A DNA stretch of 38,854 bases, taken from contig JAFZIO010000004.1 in the NCBI GenBank assembly GCA_017554335.1, forward strand, positions 1 to 38,854, in the 5' to 3' direction. The translations under genes and the position numbers were made by a program. This document shows positions 8,940 through 35,754 of the stretch, in pieces. Below the pieces are notes generated by a model. It was not told the origin of the DNA and did not search any database. It was given only the letters and a program-made list of their open reading frames with translations. Position 1 is the first letter of the stretch. Each line of letters begins with the position of its first letter. Origin of the DNA: Bacteroidales bacterium. Lineage in GTDB: Bacteria > Bacteroidota > Bacteroidia > Bacteroidales > UBA932.

Positions 8940-9918
8940 GACGCCGTCGAGCGTTTTCAAGGTGGGGGCTATCGCCCTGGCTTTCCTTATCATAGGTTTT
9001 CAGTCGTCGCTGTTCATGCAGCGGGCGGCGGCGTTGCGCATTGCCGCCAACCGCGACCGGCCGGATACCGTGTATGTTTATATTCCATCCGACGCCGCCG
9101 GTGGAGCGGATGCGAAGGCCAGTGAGGCATCGGATGGTTTGTCCCAGTGGCCTTTGGCTCCCGAAAAGGGAAGGGGCCCGCGCCAGCGGGAAGGCGCCAC
9201 GGGGACAAATTATCCGGGCCGGATCGGGCCTTCGCCAGGTGACAGCGGTATCGTGATTGTACGGCGGAATGCGGAGCACAGTGCGGTAGTGGAGAGAGAG
9301 AGGCGGCGGACGCGGCGGGTGGAGAGCTTCCGCTTCGACCCTAACACCGTCAGCGTGGAGGACCTCATGCGCCTGGGCTTCAGCGAAAAGCAGGCACAGG
9401 CGATAGACAGCTACCGGCAGAAGGGAGGACGGTTCCGTCGGCCGTCCGACTTTGGCAAGTCGTACGTGGTGGCAGATTCGGTCTTTGAGCGGCTCAAGCC
9501 TTTCATCGACATACCCAAGCTGGACATCAACAAGGCGGATTCGGCGGCATTCGACGGACTGCCCGGCATCGGTCCGTACTACGCCGCCAAGATGGTTGAG
9601 TACCGCGGGCGCCTGGGGGGCTATTCGTTCAAGGAGCAGCTGATGGACATCTGGCACTTCGACCGGGAGAAGTACGACGGTCTGAGCGACCTAATCGTAT
9701 GCTCCCGCCCTTCGACGCCCTTCCGTCTCTGGCAGATGCCGGAAGACAGCCTTCGCCAGCACCCGTACATCCGTTCGTGGCAGGCCGCCCGCTCCATCGC
9801 GCTATTCCGCAAGAGCATGCCGAGGGAGCAGTGGACCGTGGAGGCCATCACTTCCGCCGGCATACTCCCGCCGGAGGACGCCGCCAAGCTCGCCCGCTGC
9901 GTTATTGCTGACCCATGA
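8911..9918 (+). CDS. Helix-hairpin-helix (ComEA-like) DNA-binding protein, membrane-anchored
   Basis: 335 residues from GTG 8911, chosen because AAGGAGG lies just upstream and the protein then starts [10 protein letters not shown]. One N-terminal membrane segment (VGAIALAFLIIGFQSSLF, about residues 16-34) is followed by a low-complexity linker and two or three HhH/ComEA-type units; the clearest is LDINKADSAAFDGLPGIGPY (about 205-225), with SVEDLMRLGFSEKQAQAI before it. ComEA-like HhH proteins bind DNA non-specifically, often in uptake, but this exact role is inferred. A palindromic element (9138-9209) adds about 24 linker residues. The start lies inside rsmI, implying coupling. Confidence 0.75.
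   Translation: MAKRDSSKDKTPSSVFKVGAIALAFLIIGFQSSLFMQRAAALRIAANRDRPDTVYVYIPSDAAGGADAKASEASDGLSQWPLAPEKGRGPRQREGATGTNYPGRIGPSPGDSGIVIVRRNAEHSAVVERERRRTRRVESFRFDPNTVSVEDLMRLGFSEKQAQAIDSYRQKGGRFRRPSDFGKSYVVADSVFERLKPFIDIPKLDINKADSAAFDGLPGIGPYYAAKMVEYRGRLGGYSFKEQLMDIWHFDREKYDGLSDLIVCSRPSTPFRLWQMPEDSLRQHPYIRSWQAARSIALFRKSMPREQWTVEAITSAGILPPEDAAKLARCVIADP
9138..9209. repeat. In-frame palindromic element in the HhH gene
   Basis: Ends TTTGTCCC (9138-9145) and GGGACAAA (9202-9209) are inverted. The pairing continues inwards (GTGGC..CTT against AAGGCGCCAC) with one mismatch and a small bulge. The core contains GAAGGGGCCCGCG, which in reverse complement resembles the GGGCCCCTCCC core of the elements in thiL, ugd and the nucleotidyltransferase. 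It reads through without a stop. Confidence 0.7.
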
Positions 9919-9935
9919 AATAATTATTATATTTG
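9905..9935 (+). promoter_or_regulatory. rmuC promoter
   Basis: TTG at 9905-9907, a 20-bp spacer, then TATATTTG at 9928-9935, ending 6 nt before the ATG at 9942. It matches the Bacteroidota -33/-7 consensus and implies a leaderless rmuC transcript. Confidence 0.7.
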
Positions 9936-9941
9936 CAAAAT

Positions 9942-11252
9942 ATGAATAGTGAAACTATCATAATAGTCATTGTGGCGGTAGTGGTTATCGCCGTGCTGCT
10001 GGTGGTGCTCCTCACCCGCATAGGGCGGCTGAACCGCAGTCTGGAGGAGAAGAGGGGCGAGCTGGCAGGGAAGGATCTGCAGATTCAGGGCCTGGCCAAG
10101 GACCTGGAACACAAGACTGCAGAGGCGGAGAATGCCAGAAAGGCTTATGATGAGCGGCTGGCGGAGCTGAAGGAGTATAACGAAAAAGCCCTGCAGCAGC
10201 AGCTGGAGGCCGTCAAGGCGCAGATAAGCGTAGAGAGCGAGAAGATGCTCAAGAGCCGCGAAAAGGAGTTCAGCGAGCATGCCGAGAAGTCGTTCTCCAC
10301 AATTGCAGGCGACTTCAACAAGAACCTCAAGGACATGAAAGACGCCTTCGAGGCCAACAAGAAAACGCAGCACGACAGCTCCACCGAGCTCCGTACGCAG
10401 ATAGGGGAGGCCGTCAAGCAGCTGAAGGACCAGACGGAGACCGTCGGAGCCAAGGCGGACCGCCTTGCGAGCGCCCTCCGCGGCCAGAACAAGATGCAGG
10501 GCTGCTGGGGTGAGACCCAACTGTACAACCTGCTGCTTGCCGAGGGCCTGGAGGAAGGACGCGACTTCGACAGGGAAGAAACCCTCCGTGACGAACTCGG
10601 CATCATAATCCACAACGAAGAAACCGGCAAGCGCATGCGCCCCGACTTCATACTCCACTATCCGGACAACACCGACATAGTAGTCGACTGCAAGGTGTCG
10701 CTGAACGCCCTGTCGGACTACTTCTCCGCAGAGACCGAAGAAGAACGCAAGGACGCCTCCGCACGCAACCTGAAGGCCATCATGGACCAGGTGGACGGAC
10801 TCGCCCGCAAGGATTATGCGTCCTACTTGAAGCAGGGACGCAAGTGCCTGGATTACACCGTGATGTTCGTTCCCAACGTGAACGCCCTCATCCTGGCCCG
10901 CCAGCTCAACCCGCACATACTGACCGACGCCTTCCGCAAAAACGTGCTGATTACCAGCGAGGAAACGCTCATGCCTTTCCTGCGCCTCGTTCGCACCGCC
11001 TGGAAGAACTTCGAGCAGGCCCGCAACCAGGAAAAGATAGTTGCCGCCGCCCAGCGCATGATAGACCGCGTATCCGATTTCTGCACCTCTTATGCCGAGG
11101 TCGGCAAGAAGCTGGAGGATGCGCAGAAGAGCTTCGAGGCCGGCGACAAGAAGCTTCGGGAGAGCGGCCAGAGCATAGTGCGTGCGGCCAAAGAAGTGGA
11201 GTCTCTGGGACTTAAATCAAAGAAAGACCTTCCTCCGTTGCTGGAGGACTAA
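9942..11252 (+). CDS. rmuC: RmuC family DNA recombination protein
   Basis: 436 residues. The N-terminal membrane segment IIIVIVAVVVIAVLLVVLLT is followed by a long coiled coil (about residues 25-160, rich in Glu/Lys/Gln). The RmuC nuclease-like domain is at about 170-400, with GCWGETQLYNLL, RPDFILHYPDNTDIVVDCKV and LKAIMDQVDGLARKDY. The acidic/Lys residues of RPDFIL...DCKVSL suit a restriction-endonuclease-like fold. In E. coli, rmuC limits inversion at short inverted repeats, notable in a genome full of them. ATG 9942 is 6 nt after a TATATTTG box. Confidence 0.93.
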   Translation: MNSETIIIVIVAVVVIAVLLVVLLTRIGRLNRSLEEKRGELAGKDLQIQGLAKDLEHKTAEAENARKAYDERLAELKEYNEKALQQQLEAVKAQISVESEKMLKSREKEFSEHAEKSFSTIAGDFNKNLKDMKDAFEANKKTQHDSSTELRTQIGEAVKQLKDQTETVGAKADRLASALRGQNKMQGCWGETQLYNLLLAEGLEEGRDFDREETLRDELGIIIHNEETGKRMRPDFILHYPDNTDIVVDCKVSLNALSDYFSAETEEERKDASARNLKAIMDQVDGLARKDYASYLKQGRKCLDYTVMFVPNVNALILARQLNPHILTDAFRKNVLITSEETLMPFLRLVRTAWKNFEQARNQEKIVAAAQRMIDRVSDFCTSYAEVGKKLEDAQKSFEAGDKKLRESGQSIVRAAKEVESLGLKSKKDLPPLLED

Positions 11253-11264
11253 TACCATTTGAGT

Positions 11265-13896: not shown

Positions 13897-15945
13897 ATGA
13901 AGAAACGCTTTTTGTTGCTGCTGCCACTGCTTTTCTGCCTGACTTTTGTGCTGCAGGCCCAGGATGCCAAGGTTTCCTGGAGCGCGGAGGCGGTCAAGAT
14001 TGATGATAATCTGTTCGAAATAGTTTTCTCCGGCACCCCGCTGGCCGGATGGCATACTTACGGAAGCGGTGCCGAGTATTCCGCCCCTGAGCTGACGTTC
14101 TCTGCCCTGCGAGGCTGCACGGCCGAAGGTGGGCTGTACGATATCAGCAAGCCCGTTTTTGAGGACGGCGACCCTGTGTTCGACGGCCCGTTCAAGCTGG
14201 GACAGAAGGTGCGGCTGACGGAGACCGGTGCCGCTGCTTCGGGGGCCGGTGCGGCAGCGGAGGGCGTTCTGACCTATGTGGCCTGCACGGACGGAGCCTG
14301 CACTGCTCCCATCGACTGGGAGTTCAGCGTGACGATGGAGGGCGACCCCTCTGTCATCCTGAGCGACTCTTCTGTCATCCTGAGCGACAGCGAAGGATCT
14401 AAATCCACCGCCATCGCCGATCCATCGGAGGAGGGGAGCGCCGGTGGGTCGCTGTGGGCGCTGATTCTGGAGGCCATACTCTGGGGCTTCGCGATGCTGC
14501 TCACGCCATGCGTGTTCCCTATGATACCCATGACGGTTTCGTTCTTCCTCAAGGGCTCTTCCACGCCTGCGGAGGGGCGCTTCAAGGCGTCCATGTACGG
14601 CTTGTTCATAGTGCTGCTTTATACAGTCCCCATAAGTGTCATAATTCTGATTACCAGACTGATAGGCGGTGAGGCCGTGACGGCCGACATCTTCAACTGG
14701 CTGTCGACCCACTGGCTGCCGAACATCATCTTCTTTATAGTATTCATGGTGTTCGCGGCATCCTTCTTCGGGGCCTTTGAAATAGTGCTGCCGTCGTCGT
14801 TGGTGAACAAGAGCGACAAGAATTCGGAAAAGGGCGGCCTGGCCGGAGTGTTCTTTATGGCGCTCACGCTGGTGCTGGTGTCTTTCTCCTGCACAGGGCC
14901 GATTGTGGGCTCGGTGCTTATACGTTCGACTTCCGGCGAGTTCTGGACGCCAATGGTGACGATGCTGGCGTTCTCGGTGGCGTTCGCCCTTCCGTTTACC
15001 CTCTTTGCTTTGTTCCCGTCGCTGCTAACTAAGATTCGCGGAAAGAGCGGCTCCTGGCTGAACAGCGTCAAGGTGGTGCTGGGCTTCATTGAGGTGGCGC
15101 TTGGCTTTAAGTTCCTGAGCGTGGCCGACCAGACTTACCACTGGGGTATCCTGGACCGCGAGGTATATCTGGCCATATGGATAGTGGTGTTCGCTCTGCT
15201 CGGGCTTTACCTGCTGGGTAAGATTAAGTTCCCTAACGACGATCCCGAAGAAAAGCCGCTGGGCGTGTTCCGGCTGGCGCTGGTTATTACGGTTTTCTCG
15301 TTCGTGGTGTATATGATTCCGGGTATGTGGGGCGCGCCGCTCAAGGCCCTTTCCGGTTATCTGCCGCCGCTGGAGACCCAGGACTTCGTACTTGGCCGTT
15401 ATGAGCCGGCAGGGGGTGGTTCCGGCATGGCTGGTGGTCCAGCTGCGGGCGCCTCTGTCATCCTGAGCGGCAGCGAAGGATCTTCATCCGCCCGGAAGTA
15501 CGACCTCAAAATGCCCCTCGGCCTCGATGGCTACTTCACGCTCGAAGAGGGCCTTGCCGCATCCCGCAGGCTCGGCAGGCCGGTGTTCGTAGACATAACC
15601 GGCCACGGCTGCGTCAACTGCCGGGAGATGGAACAGCGTGTCTGGAGCGACCCGCGTGTGCTGTCGATACTGCGGAATGATTACGTGATGGTGGCGCTCT
15701 ATACCGACGACAAGACGCGTCTCGCGGAGGAGGACTGGGTGACGCTTCCCAACGGCCGCGTGCTCAAGGACTTAGGGCGTGCGAATTCCTATCTGGTCCG
15801 CGAGCGCTTCGGCGTCAACGCCCAGCCTAACTACGCCTTGCTTGGCAGCGACGGCGAGCTCCTCGCCCCCATCCGCGGCTACAACCTGGATGTCGACTCT
15901 TTTGTAAACTTCTTGCAGTCGGGATTATCTGCCTATCGGCAGTAG
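13897..15945 (+). CDS. dsbD: Thiol:disulfide interchange protein DsbD
   Basis: 682 residues. Signal peptide MKKRFLLLLPLLFCLTFVLQAQ; N-terminal DsbD-alpha-like domain (about 23-150); transmembrane beta domain of about eight helices with redox cysteines C205 (LLTPCVFPMIPMTV) and C332 (SFSCTGPIVGS); C-terminal thioredoxin-like domain with CxxC C572-C575 (GHGCVNCREMEQ). It passes electrons from cytoplasmic thioredoxin across the inner membrane to envelope oxidoreductases. Both interdomain linkers carry in-frame copies of a SVILSDSEGS-encoding repeat. ATG 13897 fits the signal peptide and the promoter. Its 3' end overlaps folP by 21 bp. Confidence 0.93.
   Translation: MKKRFLLLLPLLFCLTFVLQAQDAKVSWSAEAVKIDDNLFEIVFSGTPLAGWHTYGSGAEYSAPELTFSALRGCTAEGGLYDISKPVFEDGDPVFDGPFKLGQKVRLTETGAAASGAGAAAEGVLTYVACTDGACTAPIDWEFSVTMEGDPSVILSDSSVILSDSEGSKSTAIADPSEEGSAGGSLWALILEAILWGFAMLLTPCVFPMIPMTVSFFLKGSSTPAEGRFKASMYGLFIVLLYTVPISVIILITRLIGGEAVTADIFNWLSTHWLPNIIFFIVFMVFAASFFGAFEIVLPSSLVNKSDKNSEKGGLAGVFFMALTLVLVSFSCTGPIVGSVLIRSTSGEFWTPMVTMLAFSVAFALPFTLFALFPSLLTKIRGKSGSWLNSVKVVLGFIEVALGFKFLSVADQTYHWGILDREVYLAIWIVVFALLGLYLLGKIKFPNDDPEEKPLGVFRLALVITVFSFVVYMIPGMWGAPLKALSGYLPPLETQDFVLGRYEPAGGGSGMAGGPAAGASVILSGSEGSSSARKYDLKMPLGLDGYFTLEEGLAASRRLGRPVFVDITGHGCVNCREMEQRVWSDPRVLSILRNDYVMVALYTDDKTRLAEEDWVTLPNGRVLKDLGRANSYLVRERFGVNAQPNYALLGSDGELLAPIRGYNLDVDSFVNFLQSGLSAYRQ
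14351..14400. repeat. GAGCG-core palindromic repeat in dsbD, one half and one full copy
   Basis: A half copy (CTGTCATCCTGAGCGA, 14351-14366) is followed by a full copy at 14372-14400. Arms ATCCT and AGGAT flank a GAGCGACAGCGA core. The reading frame gives SVILSDS then SVILSDSEGS, in the linker between the alpha and membrane domains. Confidence 0.85.
15455..15483. repeat. GAGCG-core palindromic repeat, second dsbD copy
   Basis: It differs from the 14372-14400 copy by a single base (core GAGCGGCAGCGA), has the same arms ATCCT/AGGAT, and is read in the same frame (SVILSGSEGS). It lies in the linker before the thioredoxin domain. Confidence 0.85.
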
Positions 15946-16749
15946 CTCGTGCACCCTTAATATATCGGCGCCGTGTTTCAGCGCCAGCTCGTGCGCGGCG
16001 GCAGTGTCTCCGTGCGTGAAACGCTTGTCGGCGGCACCAATCAGGATGGGGCGGCCGAAGACCTTCAGGTCATCCAGGTTCTCCAGAATCTCCCAGTTCT
16101 GCTCTATGTTCTTGGCGAATCCGAGACCGGGATCCAGAATCCAGTCATTTATGCCAAGTTCCTCTGCCTTAGCGGAAAAGGCCTTGAAGTAGCGGAGCAG
16201 CTCCGCCATTATTCCGTCGGGATAATCAGCAAGCGAATCCATGCTCCTGGGGTTGCCGCGCTTGTGCATGGCAATGTAGGGGAGACCCAGTTCAGCCACG
16301 GTCGGCAGCATCTCCGGGTCGTCCTCCCCGGCCGATATGTCGTTCACTATGAACTCCCCGATGACCTTGTATGCGCGACGTACAATCTCGGCGGACGTGG
16401 TGTCGATGGAGAAAAGCGGCAGTTTGGCGGCGCTTGTAGCGGCGGAGCGAGCGGAGGTGCCCCCAAGGGGAGGCTTTTCCCAAGTTTTCGCCTCCCCTGG
16501 GGGCAGCCTCCGGGCGCGAAGTGCGGAGAGCGCCGCCAGCACATCCTCCAGGCGCCTCCACTCTTCTTCCAGCGGCACGTCGGCGGCTCCAGGGCGCGTG
16601 GAAACGGCACCCAGGTCGATAATGTCGGCCCCGTCGGCCAGGAACTGGTGTATGCGCGCCATAGCGGCGTCGGGCTTGTTGCTCCATACCCGGCTGGGCT
16701 CATAAAAAGAGTCCGGAGTCAGGTTCACTATTGCCATCTGTTTCACCAT
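15925..16749 (-). CDS. folP: Dihydropteroate synthase, with an inserted segment
   Basis: 274 residues from ATG 16749. FolP condenses p-aminobenzoate with dihydropterin pyrophosphate in folate synthesis. Visible motifs: MAIVNLTPDSFY, ADIIDLGAVSTRPGA, LFSIDTTSAEIV, FIVNDISAG, IAMHKRGNPRSM, WILDPGLGFAKNIEQN, ADILRVHE. Residues about 71-108 are encoded by a palindromic element and are not family sequence. The region that is normally GxSRKSxIG reads GAADKRFTHGD and is shorter than usual, and the protein ends soon after RVHE, so the C-terminal part is atypical though the Lys-Arg is kept. It overlaps dsbD convergently by 21 bp. Confidence 0.88.
   Translation of the reverse strand: MVKQMAIVNLTPDSFYEPSRVWSNKPDAAMARIHQFLADGADIIDLGAVSTRPGAADVPLEEEWRRLEDVLAALSALRARRLPPGEAKTWEKPPLGGTSARSAATSAAKLPLFSIDTTSAEIVRRAYKVIGEFIVNDISAGEDDPEMLPTVAELGLPYIAMHKRGNPRSMDSLADYPDGIMAELLRYFKAFSAKAEELGINDWILDPGLGFAKNIEQNWEILENLDDLKVFGRPILIGAADKRFTHGDTAAAHELALKHGADILRVHELLPIGR
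16426..16537. repeat. In-frame palindromic element in folP
   Basis: Outer arms GGCGGCGCT (16426-16434) and AGCGCCGCC (16529-16537) are inverted. Inner arms TGCCCCCAAGGGGAGGC (16458-16474) and GCCTCCCCTGGGGGCA (16490-16505) pair with one bulged base around a 15-nt loop. It adds about 37 residues (71-108) between the LEDVLAALS helix and the LPLFSIDTT strand of FolP. Its core differs from the GGGCCCC family. Confidence 0.8.
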
Positions 16750-17636: not shown

Positions 17637-18932
17637 ATGTCACATATTGGAGAATTCGAACTCATCGGGCGCATCAGCGCATCTGTAAATGTTCCGCAGG
17701 GAGTCACGGGAATCGGTGACGACTGCGCCATTATCCCACAGCATAGCGGATTGGATACCCTCGTTACGACTGATCTTTTGATCGAGGACCGCCATTTCTT
17801 GCTGTCTGACGTAACCCCTGAGCAGTTGGGATGGAAGAGTGCTGCCGTGAATATCAGCGACATAGCTGCCATGGGCGGCCGTCCGGTGGCGAGTTTCCTG
17901 TCCATTGCCCTGCCGAAAGGTCTTGATGCGGAATGGGTCGACAGGTTTATCGCCGGCTTCAACAAATTGAGCGGGCGATTCGGCGTGCCGCTGCTGGGCG
18001 GCGACACCTCGGCATCTCCGGACAAGTTGTTCATCAACGTTACCGTTCTTGGCGAATGCCCTCATGGTCAGGCAGTTCTGCGTTCCGGCGCCCGCCCCGG
18101 CGACCTCATTTGTGTCACGGGTTTTTTAGGTGATTCCGCCGCCGGGCTGAAGCTCGTTCTGGAGCGTGCCGGCGGCAATCAGCAGCCGGTTCAGGGGTAT
18201 GATGAGGCGACCCGTAGCCGCCCGTGGCTACGTGAACGGGAGGGGCCCAGCCGTCAGGCTGGGAGGGATGAGCGGAGCGAAGGTCTGGCTCATCATACCC
18301 CTGATCCGGCATCCATGCTGATTAGCCGCCATTATCTCCCGGTGCCGAGAGTTGAGCTCGGTCAGCAACTGGCGGCGCTCCCCGGCGTTCACGCCATGAT
18401 GGACATCTCCGACGGCATTGCCTCCGACCTGCGACATATTCTGAATGCTTCTGCGGCCAGTACCGTCGCAAATCGGGCAAGGTCCAATTTTACCCCCGAC
18501 ACCTTGCCCGGCAACATGCGTTTGGCGTCTCTCAATGGCACATTACCGTGCAAGATCCCCACCTCAGAATTGGACCTTGCCCAGATGTCTATGGATAGTG
18601 GTCAGGTATCTGCGCTGGGCGCCGAGATTGACCTGAAGGCGCTGCCGCTGAGCGAGGAGCTGAGGGCTGTGTGCGCGGAACGGGGCTGGGATGCGGCGGA
18701 GCTGGCGGTCAGCGGGGGAGAGGACTACGAGCTGCTGTTCACGGCGGCGCCGGGAACGCCGTTGCCGGAAGGCTGTACTGTGATAGGTCGGATAGTGGAT
18801 TCCGGGTCGGAGCCCGGAATGAGGTGCGAGGAGCCGGGAACTACAGATGGCGGACCTCGAACGAAGAATGGCGGGCCGGCTATCCGTTGGGTTGGCTCCG
18901 ACAAGGACTTCAAGGGCTTCACTCACTTTTGA
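17637..18932 (+). CDS. thiL: Thiamine-monophosphate kinase carrying three palindromic insertions
   Basis: 431 residues, against about 320-345 for the family. ThiL makes TPP from TMP with ATP. The AIR-synthase-like fold is recognisable: GIGDDCAIIP, VTTDLLIEDRHF, NISDIAAMGGRPV, LLGGDTSASPDKLFINVTVLG, GFLGDSAAGLKL, MMDISDGIASDL, VSGGEDYELLFT. The excess comes from three in-frame elements at about residues 183-224, 280-315 and 388-407, each in a loop between conserved blocks, so the enzyme is probably active. It is first in the riboswitch-led operon; the ATG is built into the riboswitch's 3' end. Confidence 0.93.
   Translation: MSHIGEFELIGRISASVNVPQGVTGIGDDCAIIPQHSGLDTLVTTDLLIEDRHFLLSDVTPEQLGWKSAAVNISDIAAMGGRPVASFLSIALPKGLDAEWVDRFIAGFNKLSGRFGVPLLGGDTSASPDKLFINVTVLGECPHGQAVLRSGARPGDLICVTGFLGDSAAGLKLVLERAGGNQQPVQGYDEATRSRPWLREREGPSRQAGRDERSEGLAHHTPDPASMLISRHYLPVPRVELGQQLAALPGVHAMMDISDGIASDLRHILNASAASTVANRARSNFTPDTLPGNMRLASLNGTLPCKIPTSELDLAQMSMDSGQVSALGAEIDLKALPLSEELRAVCAERGWDAAELAVSGGEDYELLFTAAPGTPLPEGCTVIGRIVDSGSEPGMRCEEPGTTDGGPRTKNGGPAIRWVGSDKDFKGFTHF
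18186..18309. repeat. Palindromic element, thiL copy 1 (GGGCCCC family)
   Basis: Terminal arms TCAGGGGTATGATGAG (18191-18206) and CTCATCATACCCCTGA (18289-18304) are perfectly inverted; allowing one mismatch they extend to 18186 and 18309. The reverse complement of the core (a CATCCCTCCC block, a GCCTGACGGC stem, GGGCCCCTCCCGTTCA, then a GGCGGCTAC stem) closely matches the ugd element. It encodes residues about 183-224. Confidence 0.88.
18475..18582. repeat. Palindromic element, thiL copy 2
   Basis: Fifteen-base perfect inverted arms GGGCAAGGTCCAATT (18475-18489) and AATTGGACCTTGCCC (18568-18582), with a further ACCTTGCCC inside. The core is unlike the other elements. It separates NASA from the GAEIDLKALPLSEEL segment that normally follows closely in ThiL. 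Confidence 0.75.
18799..18858. repeat. Palindromic element, thiL copy 3 (IAGxxxN-type hairpin family)
   Basis: Hairpin ATTCCGGG / CCCGGAAT (18799-18820) is followed by GAGGT...ACCTC (18821-18858), the same two-part design as the rfbD elements. It is read in a different frame from the rfbD copies, avoiding the TGA that the other frame would contain. Confidence 0.65.
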
Positions 18933-20534: not shown

Positions 20535-20583
20535 CTTTTTGGCGTTATCTATAATCGTCAGTGCTGTAGGTACTTAAGGAATC

Positions 20584-20609
20584 CAAGTGGGGGTAAATTC
20601 CCCCACTTG
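20584..20609 (+). other. Perfect 10-bp hairpin between thiM and thiE
   Basis: CAAGTGGGGG / CCCCCACTTG around TAAATT. It is followed by AAAACAG rather than a T run on the plus strand, and no T run lies on its other side for the minus strand, so it is not a normal intrinsic terminator. It lies 14 nt upstream of the thiE ATG and may act as a processing or stabilising element, or be another small palindromic repeat. Confidence 0.7.
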
Positions 20610-20623
20610 AAAACAGTAAGAAG

Positions 20624-21292
20624 ATGGAAATCAGAAAGATACAGAAAACGGCCAGCCGCTCGCAGGAGCGCATCAGGGAACAACTCAGACTCTATCTGGT
20701 GACCGACAGGCCGCTGTCGCTGGGGCGAGACATCGCGTGGGTGGTGGAAGAGGCGGTGAAGGGCGGCGCGACCATGGTGCAGCTGCGGGAGAAGGACATC
20801 GACACCCGCGAGTTCATCGATCTGGCGCGGCGGCTGCAACCGATACTGAAGTCCAAAGGCGTGCCGCTGATCATCAACGACCGCGTCGACGTGGCGCTGG
20901 CGGTGGATGCTGACGGGGTGCACATTGGTCAGTCGGACATGCCGTACGAGATTGCACGGCGGCTGCTCGGGCCCGACAAAATCATCGGCCTAAGCGTTGA
21001 AAACATGGATGAGGTGCGAGAGGCTAACTTGCTGGATGTCGATTATATAGGGGTGTCTCCCGTTTATGCTACCGCTACCAAGACCGATACCGCTCCGCCC
21101 TTCGGAATCGAAGGGTTGAGGGAGGCGGTTCGCATCTCAGAGCACCCTGCCGTTGCCATCGGCGGCATGAACGCCCGCACCGCCGCGGACGCCCTTGCGA
21201 CGGGAGTCGACGGAATTGCTGTCGTCAGTGCGATTTGCAGTGCCCAGGATCCGCAAGAAGCGGCCCGTTATCTCCGGTCGATTCCGAAGTAG
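20624..21292 (+). CDS. thiE: Thiamine-phosphate synthase
   Basis: 222 residues. ThiE joins HMP-PP and thiazole phosphate to TMP. The TIM-barrel signatures are LRLYLVTDRPLS, GGATMVQLREKDIDTREF, VPLIINDRVDVALAVDADGVHIGQ, IIGLSVENMDEV, DYIGVSPVYATATKTD and PAVAIGGMNARTAADAL. An N-terminal extension of about 24 charged residues precedes the family start. It is last in the thi operon and its stop region overlaps convergent tenA by 25 bp. Confidence 0.96.
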   Translation: MEIRKIQKTASRSQERIREQLRLYLVTDRPLSLGRDIAWVVEEAVKGGATMVQLREKDIDTREFIDLARRLQPILKSKGVPLIINDRVDVALAVDADGVHIGQSDMPYEIARRLLGPDKIIGLSVENMDEVREANLLDVDYIGVSPVYATATKTDTAPPFGIEGLREAVRISEHPAVAIGGMNARTAADALATGVDGIAVVSAICSAQDPQEAARYLRSIPK

Positions 21293-25079: not shown

Positions 25080-26041
25080 AGATACTTGTCACAGGTGCCA
25101 ACGGGCAGCTCGGAATGAGCTTGCGCAGGATTGCCGGTCAAGCCGGCAATGACGAAGGCCGTCATGCCCGACCTGATCGGGCATCCTTCGTCTTCACCGA
25201 CGTGGTGGACGCCCCCGGCGTGCAGACCGCGCACCTGGACATCACCGACGCCTCCGCAGTGCGGGCTATGGTTGCAGCAGAGAAGGTGGACACCGTCATC
25301 AACTGTGCCGCCTATACCAACGTGGACGCGGCCGAGGACAATCCGGAGCTGGCGGAACTGCTGAACGCAACGGCGGTGGGCATACTGGCGGAGGCGATGA
25401 AGGAGGTGGACGGCCTGCTGGTGCACATCTCCACCGACTACGTCTTCGGAGGCGACCCGTACAACACCCCTTGCACGGAGGAGCAGAAAGGCACGCCCAC
25501 AGGCGCGTACGGCCTGAGCAAGCTCCACGGCGAGCAGGCTATCCTCGTTTCCGGCGTACGGCACATAATCATACGCACCGGATGGCTGTACAGCGAGTAC
25601 GGCAAGAACTTCGTGAAGACCATGCTGAAGCTCACCGCCGAGCGGCCGCAACTCAGTGTGGTGTTCGACCAGGTGGGTACGCCTACGTACGCCGGGGACC
25701 TTGCGGCAGCGATAGTGGCTATCCTTGGGATTGCGGGTCAAGCCCGCAATGAGGGTAAGGGGGGTGCCCCTCATCCCGGACTTGATCCGGGATCCCTTGG
25801 CATCTACAACTACTCCAACGAGGGCGTCTGCAGCTGGTACGACTTTGCGAAGACAATTGCTGAGTACGCCGGCCATACATCGTGCGACATCCGGCCGTGC
25901 CATTCTAACGAGTTCCCCTCCAAGGTGCACCGCCCGTCGTACTCGGTGCTGGACAAGACCAAAATCAAGAATACTTTCGGACTGCAGATCCCTTACTGGA
26001 CCGAGTCCCTCAAAAAATGCATACAGAACCTTAACGCATGA
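25076..26041 (+). CDS. rfbD: dTDP-4-dehydrorhamnose reductase with two palindromic insertions
   Basis: 321 residues; about 280-300 is usual. It reduces dTDP-4-keto-rhamnose to dTDP-rhamnose with NAD(P)H. Motifs: ILVTGANGQLG, HLDITDASAV, VINCAAYTNVDAAEDN, HISTDYVFGGD, the catalytic YGLSKLHGE (YxxxK) and IIIRTGWLYSEYGKNF. Two segments are foreign: about residues 19-39 (IAGQAGNDEG...) after SLRR, and about 217-241 (GIAGQARNEG...) before IYNYSNEG, both from related palindromic elements and both in loops. Four-base overlaps with rfbC and rfbB show coupling. Confidence 0.96.
   Translation: MKILVTGANGQLGMSLRRIAGQAGNDEGRHARPDRASFVFTDVVDAPGVQTAHLDITDASAVRAMVAAEKVDTVINCAAYTNVDAAEDNPELAELLNATAVGILAEAMKEVDGLLVHISTDYVFGGDPYNTPCTEEQKGTPTGAYGLSKLHGEQAILVSGVRHIIIRTGWLYSEYGKNFVKTMLKLTAERPQLSVVFDQVGTPTYAGDLAAAIVAILGIAGQARNEGKGGAPHPGLDPGSLGIYNYSNEGVCSWYDFAKTIAEYAGHTSCDIRPCHSNEFPSKVHRPSYSVLDKTKIKNTFGLQIPYWTESLKKCIQNLNA
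25129..25192. repeat. Two-hairpin palindromic element, rfbD copy 1
   Basis: Hairpin 1 ATTGCCGG-TCAAG-CCGGCAAT (25130-25150). Then GACGAAGG (25151-25158) pairs with CCTTCGTC (about 25185-25192), enclosing hairpin 2 ATGCCCGA...TCGGGCAT. It reads IAGQAGNDEGRHARPDRASF without a stop. Confidence 0.88.
25723..25799. repeat. Two-hairpin palindromic element, rfbD copy 2
   Basis: Hairpin 1 ATTGCGGG-TCAAG-CCCGCAAT (25730-25750) and hairpin 2 ATCCCGGA-CTTGA-TCCGGGAT (25773-25793). The same order, loops and reading frame as copy 1, with different but still complementary arms. CCTTGG occurs on both sides, a possible target duplication. Confidence 0.88.
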
Positions 26042-27168: not shown

Positions 27169-28557
27169 ATGAAGATTGCTGTAGCAGGAACCGGTTACGT
27201 CGGTCTGAGTATCGCCACTCTGCTGGCCCAGCACCACGAGGTGGTAGCTGTGGACGTGATTCCGGAGAAGGTAGAGAAGATCAACAACAAGATTTCGCCC
27301 ATCCAGGACGAGTATATCGAGAAGTATCTGGCCGAGAAGCCGCTGAATCTGGTGGCTACGCTGGATGGTAAGGCCGCTTATAAAGACGCGGACTTTGTGG
27401 TGATTGCCGCCCCTACCAACTACGACCCCAAGAAGAATTTCTTCGACACCACGCACGTGGAGGAGGTGATTGAGCTGGTGCTGGAGGTTAACCCGAATGC
27501 CGTGATGGTAATCAAGTCTACCGTGCCGGTGGGTTACACCAGGAGCGTGCGGGAGAAGTTCAGCTACCGGGAGCGTCAGGCGGACGGCAAGATGAAGGTG
27601 GTGGTTCCGAATATCATCTTCGCTCCGGAGTTCCTTAGGGAGTCGAAGGCATTGTTCGACAACTTGTATCCCAGCCGCATCATTGTGGGCTATGATGAGG
27701 ACGTAGAGGGTACTGCCTCCGGCAGCCTTCCGCTTCGCTCCATCCCTCCCACGCCTGATGGCGCGGGCCCCTCCCGTTCATGTGGCCACGGGCGGCCACA
27801 GGCTCCGGAGGCAGCACCCTCCACGCCCCTGGCCATGGCGGCCCACACGTTTGCGGCACTGATTGCCGAGGGAGCCATCAAGGAGGACGTTCCGGTGCTG
27901 TTCATGGGAAGCACGGAGGCGGAGGCGGTGAAGCTGTTCGCCAACACCTACCTGGCCCTGCGCGTCTCCTACTTCAACGAACTTGATACTTATGCCGAGA
28001 TGAAGGGCCTCGATACTCAGGCCATCATAGAGGGCGTGGGGCTCGACCCGCGCATCGGCACGCATTATAACAACCCGAGCTTCGGTTACGGCGGATACTG
28101 CCTCCCGAAGGATACAAAGCAGCTGCTTGCGAACTTCAACGATGTGCCGGAGAACCTCATCAAGGCCATCGTGGACAGCAACCGCACCCGCAAAGACTAC
28201 ATTGCAGACCGCGTCCTTGAAAAAGCCGGCTACTACAGTGCCAACAGCGCCTATGACACCTCAAAGGAGAAGGAGGTGGTCGTGGGCGTTTATCGTCTTA
28301 CCATGAAGTCGAATTCCGACAACTTCCGCCAGAGCGCCATTCAGGGCATTATGAAGCGCATCAAGGCCAAGGGCGCCCATGTGATTATCTACGAGCCTAC
28401 GCTGGAGGACGGATCTACTTTCTTCGGCAGCAAGGTGGTGAACGACCTTGACGCCTTCAAGGCTCAGAGCGACGCCATCATAGCGAACCGCTACGACTCC
28501 TCGCTGGACGATGTGGCCGGGAAAGTTTATACACGAGACATTTTCAAGAGAGATTAA
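27169..28557 (+). CDS. ugd: UDP-glucose 6-dehydrogenase with a palindromic insertion
   Basis: 462 residues; about 390-440 is usual. It oxidises UDP-glucose to UDP-glucuronate with two NAD+. N-terminal [53 protein letters not shown]; middle domain [26 protein letters not shown]; catalytic Cys C311 in [15 protein letters not shown]-terminal UDP-binding domain. Residues about 181-222 come from the palindromic element, in the loop after RIIVGYDED, a surface position before the helix that normally follows. It supplies UDP-glucuronate for capsule and for the epimerase further on. Confidence 0.96.
27713..27814. repeat. Palindromic element in ugd (GGGCCCC family)
   Basis: Ten-base inverted arms CTGCCTCCGG (27713-27722) and CCGGAGGCAG (27805-27814). 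The core CGCTTCGCTCCATCCCTCCC, then GGGCCCCTCCCGTTCA and a GGCCACGGGCGGCCAC stem, matches the reverse complement of thiL element 1. Only the arms are unrelated. Confidence 0.88.
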
Positions 28558-31947: not shown

Positions 31948-32657
31948 TGTGGCCCTTCACTCATAAATACGCCCTGCAGCCGTCCGGTTACTTCCGTGAC
32001 CTGACGGACTGGCACTGCCACATACTTCCCGGAGTGGACGACGGCTTCCGTAACATGGACGACTCGCTCAAGGCGCTGTCTTTCTATGCCGACATTGGCA
32101 TTACGGAGGTGTGGCTCACTCCGCACATTATGGAGGACATACCCAATACTCCGGACGAGCTGAGGGCGCGTTTCAGCGAGCTGCTTGCCGCATACAAGGG
32201 GCCCGTGCGCCTGCACCTGGCTGCCGAGCACATGCTGGACAAGCTGTTCGAAGACAGGTTCGCGGCCGGCGAGGTGCTGCCCATAGGCAAAAGGGCAGAC
32301 ACTCTGCTGGTAGAGACCTCCTACTTCAATCCGCCCATGGATTTGTACGGGCTGCTCGAGCGTATAAAGCAGAAGGGCTTCAGGCCCCTGCTGGCTCACC
32401 CCGAGCGTTACGTCTACATGGACATGAAGGACTACAGGCGCCTGCGCGATGCCGGGGTGGAGCTGCAGCTCAACCTCATGTCGCTCTACGGGCTTTACGG
32501 CCTGCATGCCAGGGACAAGGCGTTCCGCCTGCTCAAGGAGGGCTTCTACGGTCGCGTGGGCACAGACCTGCACCGCCTGCGTCCGCTCGAGCGTGTGATA
32601 GTGGAAGAGCGCCTTACGCGCAAGCAGATAGCGTCTATTCCTAAGTATAACGAGTAG
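31947..32657 (+). CDS. PHP-type tyrosine-protein phosphatase (CpsB/CapC/YwqE-like)
   Basis: 236 residues. PHP metal-binding motifs: DWHCHILPGVDDG near residue 22, WLTPHIMEDIPNT, the LLAHPERYVYM histidine and GVGTDLH-like VGTDLHRL at the end. CpsB-type phosphatases dephosphorylate the BY-kinase tyrosine cluster, and the gene overlaps the kinase gene by one base, so this pairing is strongly supported. It ends the export operon, or the operon continues after a 43-bp gap containing a palindromic repeat. Confidence 0.93.
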   Translation: MWPFTHKYALQPSGYFRDLTDWHCHILPGVDDGFRNMDDSLKALSFYADIGITEVWLTPHIMEDIPNTPDELRARFSELLAAYKGPVRLHLAAEHMLDKLFEDRFAAGEVLPIGKRADTLLVETSYFNPPMDLYGLLERIKQKGFRPLLAHPERYVYMDMKDYRRLRDAGVELQLNLMSLYGLYGLHARDKAFRLLKEGFYGRVGTDLHRLRPLERVIVEERLTRKQIASIPKYNE

Positions 32658-32670
32658 TATTATCATTAGT

Positions 32671-32699
32671 TTGTCATTTCGAGCGTAGTCGAGAAATCT
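32671..32699. repeat. GAGCG-core palindromic repeat immediately before a start codon
   Basis: TTGTCATTTCGAGCGTAGTC then GAGAAATCT. Arms ATTTC/GAAAT are complementary. It ends one base before ATG 32701, so it occupies the whole ribosome-binding region of the kinase gene. Confidence 0.8.
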
Positions 32700-32700
32700 T

Positions 32701-33834
32701 ATGCAGTATCACATTTTCAGCCCCTATCGCGTCTGCCCGCTGGGCGCGCACGTTGACCACCAGCACGGTCTTGTCACCGGTTTTGCCATTGACAAGGGCG
32801 TGGACCTGTGGTTCGATGTGCGGGAGGACTCCCTGGTGAAGCTGAGTTCCAAAACCTTTGAGGGTGATGTGCAGTTCCACATCGATACGCCTTCCCAGGT
32901 GAAAGAGCGCCATTGGGGTGACTACGCCCGCGGTGCCAAGTATGCACTCCGGAAGCGCTTCGAGCTGAAGCGGGGGATTGAGGGTGTCATTCAGGGAAGC
33001 CTGCCGGTGGGTGGCCTCAGCAGCTCTGCTGCGGTACTCATCGCCTATGTGATGGCATTCGCCAAGGCAAATGATATTACGCTTCAGCCCTTTGAGATTG
33101 TGAAGATTGCTTCGGAGGCGGAGCGGGAGTATATCGGACTGAATAACGGTCTTCTGGACCAGGCTTGTATAGCCCTCGGCAAGAAAGACGGGCTGCTGTT
33201 CCTGGATTGCGACAGCAACGACTGGCGCATCATCAAGCGGAATCCTGAGATGCCAGAGTTTGAGATTGGCATCTTCTTCAGCGGACTCACGCGCAGCCTG
33301 GTGAACTCTGACTACAACCTCCGAGTTTACGAATGCAAAACGGCCGCATGGAACATGCTGGCCTATATGGACCAGCCGCTCAAGACTTTCGACAAGACCT
33401 TCCTGCGGGATATCCCCAAGGCAACGTTCGATAAGACAAAGATTGCCATGCCGGCAAGGTTTGCCAGAAGGGCCGAGCATTTTTATAGCGAGTACCGCAG
33501 GGTAAGGCAGGGCGTTACGGCATGGGAATCCGGCAACTTGAAGCTCTTTGGGAAGCTGAGTTTTGACTCTTGCGAGAGCTCCATCCACAATTATGAGTGC
33601 GGCTCTCCGGAGCTGATTGCCATATATGAGATTATGCACAGTCTTCCCGGCGTATATGGCGGCCGATTCTCCGGTGCCGGTTTCAAGGGCGCGTGCATCG
33701 CGCTGGTGGATCCCGCTTACAAGGAAGAGATTGAAAAAACGCTTACAGAGCGCTACCTGAAGCAGTTCCCGGAGTACGAGAATACCTTCAAAGTGTTCTG
33801 GGTTAAACCCGACGACGGAGCAAGATTCGTATGA
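32701..33834 (+). CDS. GHMP kinase, probable galacturonokinase
   Basis: 377 residues. GHMP features: FSPYRVCPLGAHVDHQHG (residues 6-23), GGLSSSAAVLIA (104-115) and PGVYGGRFSGAGFKGAC near residue 320. The first motif differs from ordinary galactokinase (GRTNLIGEHTDYNGG) and resembles plant galacturonokinase, which I recall as SPYRICPLGAHIDHQGG; YARGAKYAL, GLNNGLLDQ, YNLRVYEC and RFARRAEHFYSE also look shared. It would phosphorylate galacturonate (or a related uronate) at C1. It overlaps the nucleotidyltransferase gene by ATGA, and a uronate epimerase follows. The substrate is inferred, not shown. Confidence 0.78.
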   Translation: MQYHIFSPYRVCPLGAHVDHQHGLVTGFAIDKGVDLWFDVREDSLVKLSSKTFEGDVQFHIDTPSQVKERHWGDYARGAKYALRKRFELKRGIEGVIQGSLPVGGLSSSAAVLIAYVMAFAKANDITLQPFEIVKIASEAEREYIGLNNGLLDQACIALGKKDGLLFLDCDSNDWRIIKRNPEMPEFEIGIFFSGLTRSLVNSDYNLRVYECKTAAWNMLAYMDQPLKTFDKTFLRDIPKATFDKTKIAMPARFARRAEHFYSEYRRVRQGVTAWESGNLKLFGKLSFDSCESSIHNYECGSPELIAIYEIMHSLPGVYGGRFSGAGFKGACIALVDPAYKEEIEKTLTERYLKQFPEYENTFKVFWVKPDDGARFV

Positions 33835-34667
33835 AGAATATAGTTATTGCCGCAGGATACGCCACCAGGTTAGGGGAGCTCACCAGGAACTTCCCCAAGC
33901 CGCTGCTCCAGATTGGCAGCAGCACCATCCTGGGCCGTATGCTGGACGATATAGACCGCATCCCGGAGATTGATGAGCACATCATCATCACCAACCATAA
34001 GTTTGCTCCGATATTTGACGAATGGGTAGCAGGGAGGTTGTCTCCCGAAACGTCGCTTCGCGACCCCTCCCATTCTGCGAATGGGCCCCTCCCTCTTATG
34101 GGGCCGAGGGTGGCCACAGTTTCGGGAGACAACCTCCCTGCTACCCACAAGCCCATAACTATTGTGGATGACGGGACGGAGACGAATGAGACGAGGCTGG
34201 GTGCTGTGTGTGACCTGTTGTTTGCGATGGACAAGTTGGAGATAGACGACGATATGCTGGTGGTGGCGGCAGACAATATCCTGGACTTCAGTTTCCAGGA
34301 GTTCGTGGACTTTGCCAAAGAGAAAGGCACAAGTTGCATCATGTGCCACGAGCAGCCGAGCATTGAGAAGCTCCAGCGGACGGGTGTTGTGGTGCTGGAC
34401 CAGAATCACAAGGTGCTGGAGATGGCCGAGAAGCCGCAGGAACCCAAGACCCACTGGGCCGTGCCGCCCTTCTATATCTATTTGAAGAAGGATCTGGACC
34501 TGGTCCGCCACTCCGTGGAGAACGGCTGCGGCAAGGATGCCCCCGGCAATCTGGCGCATTATATGGTGGAGCACACTACCATGCACGCCTGGCCGATGAG
34601 TGCCGGTCGCTTTGATATCGGCAGTCTGGACACTTACGAAGAGGCAAAACGAATTTACGGACAATAG
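33831..34667 (+). CDS. Sugar-1-phosphate nucleotidyltransferase with a palindromic insertion
   Basis: 278 residues, about 240 without the insert. N-terminal NTP_transferase motif IVIAAGYATRLGELTRNFPKPLLQIG; VVAADNILDFSF carries the metal Asp; MAEKPQEPKTHWAVPPFYIY and GRFDIGSLDTYEEA complete the fold. The variable second motif precludes naming a sugar. Residues about 65-106 come from an element with a perfect 29-bp inverted repeat, between FDEWVAG and KPITIVDD. It is coupled to the GHMP kinase (ATGA), so it probably activates the kinase product, giving a UDP-uronate that the epimerase downstream could use. Confidence 0.85.
   Translation: MKNIVIAAGYATRLGELTRNFPKPLLQIGSSTILGRMLDDIDRIPEIDEHIIITNHKFAPIFDEWVAGRLSPETSLRDPSHSANGPLPLMGPRVATVSGDNLPATHKPITIVDDGTETNETRLGAVCDLLFAMDKLEIDDDMLVVAADNILDFSFQEFVDFAKEKGTSCIMCHEQPSIEKLQRTGVVVLDQNHKVLEMAEKPQEPKTHWAVPPFYIYLKKDLDLVRHSVENGCGKDAPGNLAHYMVEHTTMHAWPMSAGRFDIGSLDTYEEAKRIYGQ
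34023..34147. repeat. Palindromic element in the nucleotidyltransferase gene, 29-bp perfect arms
   Basis: Positions 34023-34051 and 34119-34147 are exact reverse complements (left arm starts TGGGTAGCAGGGAGGTTGTC). The 67-bp core contains CGCTTCGCGACCCCTCCC, GGGCCCCTCCC and GGTGGCCAC, in the same order as the ugd and thiL-1 cores. It has the longest arms in the window and is read through in frame. Confidence 0.92.
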
Positions 34668-34689
34668 TGGCACATAAAGAGAAAATGAA

Positions 34690-35754
34690 ATGAAAACAAT
34701 ACTGGTTACCGGCAGCGCCGGGTTTATCGGAGCCGCACTTGTAGAGCGCTTGCTTGACAGGCAAGAGGTCGCGAGTATAGTAGGCCTGGATAACCTGAAC
34801 GGGTATTACGATCCGGCGCTGAAGGAGTACCGGTTGAGGAGAATAGAAGAGCATTACTCTTCCCTCATTGCGGGCTCGACCCGCAATCTCCAATACCGGT
34901 TCATCAAGGGCGATATCACAGACCGGGAACTGGTCGACCGGCTTTTCGCAGAGCACAAGTTCGACATAGTGGTGAACCTTGCCGCCCAGGCGGGCGTGCG
35001 GTATTCGATCGAGAATCCGGATGCGTACATCCAGAGCAATATGATCGGGTTCTACAACATCCTGGAGGCCTGTAGGCATAATCCCGTTGAGCACTTGGTA
35101 TATGCGAGCTCGAGCTCTGTGTATGGCGGTAACAAGAAGGTGCCGTTCTCAACGGATGATCGGGTAGACAATCCAGTCTCCCTATATGCGGCAACGAAGA
35201 AGTCCAACGAGCTGTTCGCGCATTGCTACAGCAAGTTGTACGATATTCCGACCACCGGTTTGCGTTTCTTCACGGTGTATGGCCCGGCAGGGCGCCCGGA
35301 TATGGCGTACTTCGGTTTCACGAACAAGCTGCTCGCCGGGAAGACCATCCAGATCTATAACTACGGCAACTGCCGACGCGACTTCACGTACGTGGACGAC
35401 ATCGTAGAGGGCATCGTGCGCGTGATGGCCAAGGCCCCCGAGCGCAAGAAAGGGGAGGACGGGCTTCCGATCCCTCCGTACGCGGTTTACAACATCGGTG
35501 GCGGCCAGCCCGAGAACCTGCTGGACTTTGTGAACATCCTGCAGGAGGAACTCCTCCGCGCGGGCGTGTTGCCGCAGGACTACGACTTCGAGGCCCATAA
35601 GGAGCTGGTGCCCATGCAGCCCGGCGACGTGCCGGTGACGTACGCAGACGCCTCAGCGTTGGAGCGCGACTTTGGCTTCACGCCAAAAACAACACTCCGC
35701 GAAGGCTTGCGCAAGTTCGCGGAGTGGTACAGAGAGTATTACCGGACGGCTTAG
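34690..35754 (+). CDS. NAD-dependent epimerase, probable UDP-glucuronate 4-epimerase
   Basis: 354 residues. Extended SDR: TILVTGSAGFIGAALVERL, DNLNGYYDPALKEYRL, VVNLAAQAGVRYSIENPDAYI, YASSSSVYGGNKKVPF, catalytic YAATKKSNELF and FTVYGPAGRPDMAYF, the GRPDMA form typical of UDP-glucuronate 4-epimerases. It interconverts UDP-GlcA (from Ugd) and UDP-GalA. A small hairpin repeat inserts IAGSTRN near residue 60. It overlaps the convergent lipoprotein gene by four bases (TTAG). Confidence 0.92.
   Translation: MKTILVTGSAGFIGAALVERLLDRQEVASIVGLDNLNGYYDPALKEYRLRRIEEHYSSLIAGSTRNLQYRFIKGDITDRELVDRLFAEHKFDIVVNLAAQAGVRYSIENPDAYIQSNMIGFYNILEACRHNPVEHLVYASSSSVYGGNKKVPFSTDDRVDNPVSLYAATKKSNELFAHCYSKLYDIPTTGLRFFTVYGPAGRPDMAYFGFTNKLLAGKTIQIYNYGNCRRDFTYVDDIVEGIVRVMAKAPERKKGEDGLPIPPYAVYNIGGGQPENLLDFVNILQEELLRAGVLPQDYDFEAHKELVPMQPGDVPVTYADASALERDFGFTPKTTLREGLRKFAEWYREYYRTA
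34867..34887. repeat. Single-hairpin palindromic repeat in uge
   Basis: ATTGCGGG-CTCGA-CCCGCAAT, the same hairpin 1 and same reading frame (IAG..RN) as in the rfbD elements, without a second hairpin. Confidence 0.75.

Follow-up and report, generated by a model that had tools for sequence, protein, structure and literature searches.

Several families of small palindromic elements lie in frame within unrelated protein-coding genes of an uncultured member of the Bacteroidales, and at several sites they are absent from the orthologues of related species. The elements probably represent small non-autonomous mobile families, seen inside genes as in-frame survivors in permissive loops and with stems kept paired mainly by template switching. 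We read the most abundant of the families counted, here termed family B, as a folded selfish element, filtered by selection into such loops.

Palindromic inserts in open frames

The window (the whole 38,854-nucleotide stretch analyzed) contains twelve palindromic segments at the positions noted earlier; re-reading of the sequence places all twelve in open frames:

HhH protein gene, 9112..9235 (-): B-like element of the GGGCCCCTTCCC subfamily, outer arms imperfect, inverted arms 73%
dsbD, first site, 14342..14409 (+): family C hairpin plus a partial tandem copy
dsbD, second site, 15446..15492 (+): family C hairpin
folP, 16447..16517 (-): unclassified hairpin insert, arms 79% complementary
thiL, first insert, 18185..18310 (-): family B (match to model R1, 18197-18296)
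thiL, second insert, 18475..18582 (+): family D, GGGCAAGGTCC...GGACCTTGCCC
thiL, third insert, 18798..18880 (+): A-like CCTC-tagged hairpin (18798-18824), then a further insert
rfbD, first site, 25128..25195 (+): family A dimer, CGTC-tagged hairpins with tags facing each other
rfbD, second site, 25728..25804 (+): family A dimer, CCTC tags
ugd, 27701..27828 (+): family B (R1 match 27713-27816)
nucleotidyltransferase gene, 34023..34147 (+): family B, perfect 29-bp outer arms (R1 match 34037-34134)
uge, 34863..34888 (+): family A, single CCTC-tagged hairpin

As the earlier note supposed, the segments are of several kinds, and four unrelated families (A, B, C and D) were told apart. Its description of the folP and thiL segments as singletons is wrong for thiL: the third insert is an A-like CCTC-tagged hairpin, and the second groups with a hairpin located upstream of a gene resembling Y1 transposases. 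The element in the HhH gene gives no match to the family B model R1; its subfamily is also found at L024, L025, L027 and L031.

The view that the inserts fall in loops is borne out for ThiL. In an AlphaFold2 model 255 of the 431 residues have a pLDDT of at least 90, and there are three stretches below 50 (residues 186-218, 294-322 and 391-408), each within one insert. Pfam matches place the ugd element between two UDPG_MGDP_dh domains; in the nucleotidyltransferase the NTP_transferase domain (residues 2-275) spans the B element.

Inverted repeats are far more frequent than expected by chance: in 436 kb of the genome (the window and 20 further stretches) 31 were found at a score of at least 13, against 1.0 expected, and 68 against 13.0 under a looser rule. 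They are more closely packed in the window than elsewhere: its 38.9 kb holds six of the ten hairpins scored in frame under the looser rule. That these are ordinary loops native to the proteins of this lineage and complementary by chance is barely credible. Their location in variable loops would suit such an origin, as would the AtpG loop, the length of which varies throughout the genus, but it is already contradicted by the occurrence of the same families in unrelated genes and intergenically, by the excess of inverted repeats and by the absence of the inserts from orthologues.

Empty and filled sites in orthologues

Alignment with orthologues upheld the proposal that the segments are insertions: those of thiL, rfbD and folP are mostly absent from the genus, or another element occupies the same loop. 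For thiL, 31 genomes were searched and nine genus loci compared, the remainder giving weak or no match. The first site is empty at six of the nine and holds other elements at three; the second is empty at eight, genome G035 carrying a homologous insert; the third is empty at all nine. In rfbD, 27 of the 29 loci that extend to the position of the first insert lack it, and 28 of 30 lack the second; the filled loci belong to the genome under study and to G035, where arrays of another family occupy both sites. In folP, G035 holds a different insert and G031 none, and the B site of ugd is empty in G004. For dsbD and the HhH gene the sole comparison was with G035, in which both dsbD sites hold longer arrays of family C and the HhH gene carries a B element.

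Tagged hairpins: families A and C

Family A comprises CGTC- or CCTC-tagged hairpins, mostly arranged as dimers. Both hairpins of the first rfbD site (ATTGCCGG-CTTGA-CCGGCAAT and ATGCCCGA-CCTGA-TCGGGCAT) carry CGTC, while the second rfbD site and uge, which are built alike, and the third thiL insert carry CCTC. Stems and loops follow the rule for CGTC-tagged REPs (8-9 bp, an A-T start and a loop of 4-5 bases), and the tag, the 8-bp stem starting with AT, the five-base loop, the tag-facing dimers and the in-gene units all correspond to the description of that superfamily in the excerpts of PMC3733652 consulted. Judged by its sequence, family A fits this known superfamily; the third thiL insert, of the same form as a hairpin at L409, is only A-like because its loop has six bases. 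The family A pattern, which misses the thiL hairpin, occurs at four places in the genome, three of them in the window. The earlier statement that no established system is known in Bacteroidales therefore needs amendment, since CGTC-tagged REPs have been recorded in five phyla, Bacteroidetes among them, and intragenic REPs in several species (PMC3733652).

Family C is a TGTC-tagged hairpin that departs from the REP stem rule: five Watson-Crick pairs are followed by a two-by-two mismatch, two pairs and a three-base loop. A looser pattern located nine places in the 436-kb sample, six of them in genes (seven and six with the first pattern, which fits a single spacing only).

Family B: a pseudoknotted element

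Family B, the GGGCCCCTCCC-core element, is the real novelty among the families. It has 43 matches in the genome under study and is present in 36 of the 41 genomes of the genus (this one included); outside the genus, one of 78 genomes from the same order has it. Some counts across genomes are lower bounds, with scoring of 98 or 50 candidates in each genome and stricter filters. The fold has four helices, an outer stem (P1) and three hairpins (P2, P3 and P4), plus a pseudoknot of 5 bp that joins the P4 loop to the strand preceding this hairpin. Across 20 copies 93.7% of cells are paired (81.5% in shuffled controls), 14 pairs display two-sided changes, and covariation is 0.350, compared with 0.122 after shuffling and no more than 0.080 after sliding. 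The pseudoknot, in five sequence versions, pairs in all 80 readable copies of the 85 model matches (five were not read by the rule); it is absent from the search model and was first noticed in copies belonging to the same 85 matches.

Family B does not resemble a single tagged hairpin of the REP type, and no conserved foot tag was found in the aligned copies. An Rfam search of positions 9000-35000 returned no family at threshold on the B copies; only a TPP riboswitch reached its gathering score. A likeness of the nucleotidyltransferase copy to mir-642 (43.5 of 90) was dismissed as a chance hairpin likeness, and a hammerhead- or HDV-like ribozyme was rejected because the order of strands does not fit.

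Reading frame and strand of family B

A model search with a count of intragenic copies, as envisaged for each family in the earlier note, gave for family B 21 of 43 copies in frame within genes, as judged by whole-frame reading and Pfam. Hosts include aroB, polA, uvrA, dnaX, atpG, fmt and tilS; the 22 copies not assigned to a gene include equivocal ones (L356 and L358). The in-gene share is taken from whole-frame reading because earlier scoring had called many such copies one-sided or noncoding; counting by hairpin scan or short-flank coding score is too insensitive.

Among 48 B copies 169 of 288 frames are stop-free, against 157.3 expected after base shuffling. This lends no support to a reading frame built into the element, and with so little excess no special frame protection is needed: selection after insertion suffices, which answers in part the question of how the frame is protected. 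In-gene copies would survive only where the frame is kept, the frame used is free of stops and the loop is permissive, and the survivors would be translated as flexible linkers.

Mobile bypass elements exist in other systems, and the inserts might likewise be spliced, bypassed by the ribosome or excised, so that frame would be irrelevant. We consider this very improbable. No copy was scored as frame-shifting among 37 from this genome and G035, although that scoring missed many in-gene copies, and the in-gene places found for families A and C are open frames. That in-gene copies keep the frame counts against bypass, which would not require open frames.

The C-rich strand is found in the mRNA in 16 of the 21 in-gene copies and the opposite strand in five (for L138 and L139 the strand is that of the recognized gene, folC and a phosphatase-like lipoprotein gene respectively, not the automatic choice). 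Stop-free frames alone predict 66%; with about two thirds thus expected, we do not take the bias as a sign of a role in mRNA.

Copy-specific arms and their upkeep

The outer arms of family B vary from copy to copy, but the two arms of a single copy pair with each other (own-partner score 18.8, against 1.6 for swapped partners), to the same degree inside genes and outside them. The own partner is the best for 40 of 43 copies, the arm ends having been chosen to maximize own pairing. Terminal inverted repeats of the MITE type, shared by all copies, are not a feature of family B: arms rarely pair between copies, and a subset shares a GGGGGACTG-type arm.

A B insert in a spoU-type gene is common to four species. 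Of its 20 P1 pairs, six have changed on both sides, none on one side only, and seven are invariant; the other seven depart through unpaired cells only (12 of 80 stem cells are unpaired). After insertion, the B sequence would drift while fold-back template switching, selection or both hold the stems paired. We infer that template switching rather than selection is responsible, and lean towards the copying of one arm from the other by fold-back during replication as the main cause; selection on mobile source copies would set the conserved core. In other systems template switching homogenizes arms, inverts spacers and maintains hairpins, according to the portions of PMC8604942 and PMC8794818 consulted.

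An unlikely alternative is that the G-rich strand of B gives rise to a structured RNA or single-stranded DNA in which form the element works, and that selection on the fold, not template switching, keeps the stems. The pseudoknot and conserved linkers speak for it, as does the better folding of the G-rich strand (RNAalifold -31.5, C-rich -25.6). Mismatches in P1 are strand-biased (52 A.C and 19 G.T as read on the C-rich strand, p = 1e-4; G.T favored on the G-rich strand), which favors constraint on the folded G-rich strand over symmetric copying, and in 82 of 85 copies the G-rich strand has G.U, A-U or G-C at the fourth pair of P3. The bias is not general: the corresponding counts, all taken from an alignment fitted to the C-rich strand, are 12 to 5 in P4 (p = 0.14), 1 to 2 in P2 and 3 to 4 in the three inner P1 model pairs, and P3 without its fourth pair leans the opposite way (1 to 15). 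The near-predicted share of C-rich strands in mRNA and the lack of an Rfam family at threshold on the window copies also weigh against it, and with host genes so unrelated no common cis-role is apparent. Put forward more tentatively than the template-switching account, family B may be a mobile genetic element of a new kind: a pseudoknotted, folded nucleic acid, active as RNA or single-stranded DNA through the G-rich strand, lacking terminal repeats common to all copies, rebuilding its stem from its surroundings and colonizing essential genes in frame.

The outer stem P1 extends into host codons further than it does with swapped hosts (combined p = 3e-4 over nine genes; the swaps are not independent), which speaks for the main account. 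It is conceivable, if improbable, that the target is copied in inverted form upon insertion, each copy starting with arms from its own host gene. The stems of fmt, prmC, folC, trmB and thiL do enter host-conserved codons, but there is no such extension in aroB, tilS or atpG, and L142 and L144 have near-identical arms at two places, albeit with right flanks 90% alike over 183 bases. The test for host sequence copied into an arm came out weak, to the disadvantage of the main account: exact matches of at least 8 nt were found in two of nine own and two of 72 swapped comparisons.

Y1/HUH genes as candidate mobilizers

Family D, represented by the second thiL insert, includes an inverted repeat (L002, 1158-1267) upstream of a Y1_Tnp-like gene (1396-2319), the single locus at which D lies next to such a gene; no GTAG tag is present at the ends of the three clustered copies. 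Across the genus a strong hairpin lies within 500 bases of Y1-like genes at 16 of 24 loci; among control ORFs the figure is 18 of 117. In the genome under study, both Y1_Tnp matches are about 308 amino acids long and score near the family cut-off. Two strong and two weak B matches were found in 49 Y1 loci, the strong ones being one orthologous locus in two sister species, which gives no support to a Y1 gene as mobilizer of B. To the question whether a mobilizer exists there is thus a candidate for family D, the gene at L002, and none for B: Y1/HUH enzymes would be the mobilizers, an association being seen with D and other hairpins, but not with B. The elements themselves would move as folded single strands, landing in genes and between them.

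Relation to known systems

The comparisons below are limited to the excerpts of the cited papers that were consulted. The likeness to Rickettsia palindromic elements drawn in the earlier note is sound: here, too, several palindrome families lie in frame within unrelated genes (PMC10969869, PMC3733652), are absent from orthologues and fall in loops, alike in effect. Unlike those elements, the present ones belong to another phylum, and B is a pseudoknotted multi-helix structure with copy-specific arms, a distinction drawn from descriptions and not from sequence. Host genes of CGTC-tagged REPs (uvrA, uvrD/rep and polA; PMC3733652) recur as B hosts, although neither B nor D follows the tag and stem rules of that superfamily. 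RAYT/REP systems (REPtrons, REPINs) likewise combine Y1/HUH transposase-like genes with flanking hairpins, and subclass 2.6 of Bacteroidetes is described as having 'atypical secondary structures', copies of which occur elsewhere (PMC6006769); in contrast to these systems, no GTAG tag was seen here and B does not as a rule lie beside Y1 genes. BrickBuilt MITEs of Porphyromonas gingivalis, a member of the Bacteroidales, are small repeated non-autonomous elements too, but are treated as intergenic and noncoding (PMC5771137). The STAXI motif is, like B, a pseudoknot that occurs repeatedly and has been discussed as single-stranded DNA or RNA; it is usually tandem near genes for DNA-handling proteins (PMC2864571), whereas the Rfam matches listed for the window include no such family. 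Hairpins maintained by template switching share the two-sided changes that keep stems paired (PMC8794818), and coding genes of Nematomorpha mitochondria contain palindromes (PMC6649704), but neither are mobile families. No description of family B, or of in-frame palindromes in Bacteroidales, was found in the excerpts of the REP, RPE, MITE, pseudoknot and hairpin literature consulted.

Rickettsia supplies most of the known instances of palindromes colonizing genes in frame, and other phyla add scattered REP cases. The present case, in uncultured gut and rumen Bacteroidales, is genus-wide and involves multiple families, with many relatives and both empty and filled sites, and the fold of family B can be traced within coding genes by means of its paired changes. 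This opens two old questions to testing: by what means such elements move, and whether it is selection or template switching that keeps the stems. The inserts also explain odd loops rich in P, G, S and R in the predicted proteins of these bacteria.

Palindromic segments in open frames

The twelve short palindromic segments that the earlier note had placed within the HhH gene, dsbD, folP, thiL, rfbD, ugd, a nucleotidyltransferase gene and uge were all found at their positions in the window, and all are open. The genome, from a genus of uncultured Bacteroidales, comprises 2.35 Mb in 75 contigs (the window is contig 60); in 436 kb of it 31 strong inverted repeats were observed versus 1.0 expected.

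Other features of the window
563-811: cluster of TCTGACAG-type repeats; also in loci L024 (323-581) and L025 (2391-2828)
17556-17652: TPP riboswitch, immediately upstream of thiL
20580-20632: further small hairpin family (AATCCAAGTGGGGG...CCCCCACTTGG), apart from the reported set; also in loci L026, L027 and L034
38034-38099 and 38536-38602: near-identical pair of ~66-base copies

Orthologous sites

Alignment with orthologues, which the earlier note had proposed as a check, bore out its view of the segments as inserts: those of thiL, rfbD and folP are mostly absent or replaced by other elements in the genus. Site 1 of ThiL is empty in six of nine genus orthologues and holds different elements in the other three; insert 2 is absent from eight of the nine, and insert 3 from all nine. 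ThiL of the close relative G035 carries family C (TGTC-tagged) hairpins at two additional sites, each translated CHPERSEGS. Among 29 and 30 loci, the two RfbD sites are filled only in the window's genome (family A, CGTC/CCTC-tagged hairpins) and in G035 (C-type arrays). The FolP inserts of these two genomes differ from each other, and G031, of the same genus, has none. For dsbD and the HhH gene the comparison was limited to G035; the nucleotidyltransferase gene and uge lay outside it. The comparison thus reveals insertions, with different families repeatedly striking the same loops.

Families A, C and D

Family A obeys the rules of the CGTC REP superfamily, and is a known superfamily in a new occurrence. 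Its pattern occurs four times in the genome, each time within an open frame. A narrow family C pattern occurs at seven places, six of them in frame within genes; a looser one gives nine over 436 kb, six in genes, with uvrA newly among these.

Places of families A and C in genes (names are our interpretation of the translations)
Family A: rfbD (two), uge, one gene read as DNA-alkylation repair
Family C, narrow pattern: dsbD (two), pheT, MFS transporter, altronate-dehydratase-like gene, NRPS-like gene

Family D, insert 2 of thiL, falls in one cluster with a hairpin lying upstream of a Y1_Tnp-like protein of 308 residues. Among the 24 genus loci with full flanks (of 30 surveyed), 16 have a strong hairpin at most 500 bases from the Y1 gene, one of these being a family B copy, versus 18 of the 117 ORFs from this genome that served as controls.

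Family B: fold and distribution

Family B, a new structured element, yields a single fold from twenty copies: an outer stem built from two arms (P1), inner hairpins P2, P3 and P4, and a pseudoknot, paired in this set as CCCGT with ACGGG, CCCAT with ATGGG and CCCTC with GAGGG. A covariance-model search, also proposed in the earlier note, returned 43 matches in this genome. The model was built without the pseudoknot, which is nonetheless paired in all 80 matches parsed out of 85 (the remaining five were not parsed by the rule). Within the genus, 36 of 41 genomes have matches, this one being counted. Among genomes drawn from the order, 1 of 78 outside the genus has the element, with three matches; one additional genus genome in that draw gave none.

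Family B within genes

By whole-frame reading, 21 of the 43 own copies lie in frame within genes.

Genes holding family B
aroB (two copies), dnaX, polA, uvrD-type helicase, uvrA, fmt, trmB, tilS, atpG
spoU-type methylase, prmC, THUMP-like methyltransferase, hemW-like, YfhO-like protein, thiL, ugd
nucleotidyltransferase, folC, pbpC, phosphatase-like lipoprotein (less sure, as the copy lies near the N-terminus)

REP-carrying genes of other bacteria listed in PMC3733652 include uvrA, uvrD/rep and polA, which recur here. Pfam was counted as support where a domain crosses the insert or where the insert is flanked by a domain to its left and another to its right. ATP synthase gamma (1-281 of 285) spans residues 4-320 of atpG, and NTP_transferase is matched over 1-241 of 245 in the nucleotidyltransferase; domains are broken in two at aroB, fmt and tilS, and lie on each side in polA, prmC, spoU and ugd. 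Matches fall on one side only in dnaX, the uvrD-type helicase, hemW, trmB and the THUMP-like gene; thiL has one domain only, the YfhO-like protein gave no Pfam match, and the scan left out folC, pbpC and the phosphatase. None of 37 scored copies (own and G035) separates differently framed pieces of one gene, nor does any of 68 scored hairpins, one of which lies in the same frame, with a stop.

Orthologous sites are empty, with continuous flanks, for tilS, trmB, folC, fmt, prmC, aroB and ugd. In aroB the same two subfamilies occur in the window's genome and G035 with order and orientation swapped, which is compatible with inversion of the spacer and also with two insertions made independently. 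Both genomes have B copies in one and the same linker or loop of dnaX and of fmt, and the subfamily differs between them.

Other arrangements involving family B
L143 1889-1994 (aroB), L403 (G035 folC), L400 (G035 prmC): more inserts nested in or beside B, host frame open
L242 (G031 trmB): tandem array beside a B element, adding some 70 residues in frame to the TrmB loop
L253 (G000:C38:38000-50000) and L146 (G035:C12:5000-17500): ~4 kb segment (sigma factor, lipoprotein, Y1-like gene) lying in opposite orientations in the two species, in each of them with B copies at its two ends

Family B shows a high GC content, not an adaptation to being read: open frames (169 of 288 in 48 copies) are close to the 157.3 obtained after base shuffling. 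The C-rich strand is in the mRNA for 16 of the 21 in-gene copies; a share of about two thirds is expected from open frames alone. An AlphaFold2 model of ThiL (20 aligned sequences; mean pLDDT 80.4) falls below 50 in three stretches, residues 186-218, 294-322 and 391-408, all within the three inserts.

Upkeep of the stem

P1 varies in most copies, and in 40 of 43 the own right arm is the best partner of the left. Mean pairing scores are 18.8 for own and 1.6 for swapped arms, arm ends having been picked for the strongest own pairing, a choice that biases the comparison towards own arms; these score 19.2 in genes and 18.4 elsewhere. The spoU-type insert is common to G000 (the window's genome), G035, G031 and G004; its 20 P1 pairs comprise six with two-sided changes, none one-sided, seven invariant and seven departing by unpaired cells only (an opposite-strand copy in G011 was excluded).

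For nine genes with an empty orthologue, the stem gained from the own host flank was compared with that from 64 swapped flanks. In fmt, folC, trmB, prmC and thiL the own flank beats nearly all (0 to 3 of the 64 swaps do as well); the gain is weaker in ugd (9 of 64) and absent in tilS, atpG and aroB (30, 32 and 64 of 64). A stricter exact-match test gave 2 of 9 own versus 2 of 72 swapped. Such extension is suggestive of fold-back copying.

Stems might instead be kept by selection on a folded G-rich strand or RNA. The best evidence for this is that P1 mismatches on the C-rich strand are biased (A.C 52, G.T 19 in 54 distinct copies), together with the better fold of the G-rich strand. The bias is not uniform: 12 to 5 in P4, 1 to 2 in P2, 3 to 4 in inner P1, and 1 to 15 in P3 minus its fourth pair.

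We consider it probable that these are folded mobile families residing in genes and between them, with the stems of family B upheld mainly by fold-back template switching. A bolder and rather doubtful proposal is that family B is a new kind of mobile element, pseudoknotted and active from its G-rich strand. Confidence in both is slightly lowered by the uneven strand bias. In-frame palindromic elements are a real, genus-wide system of multiple families.
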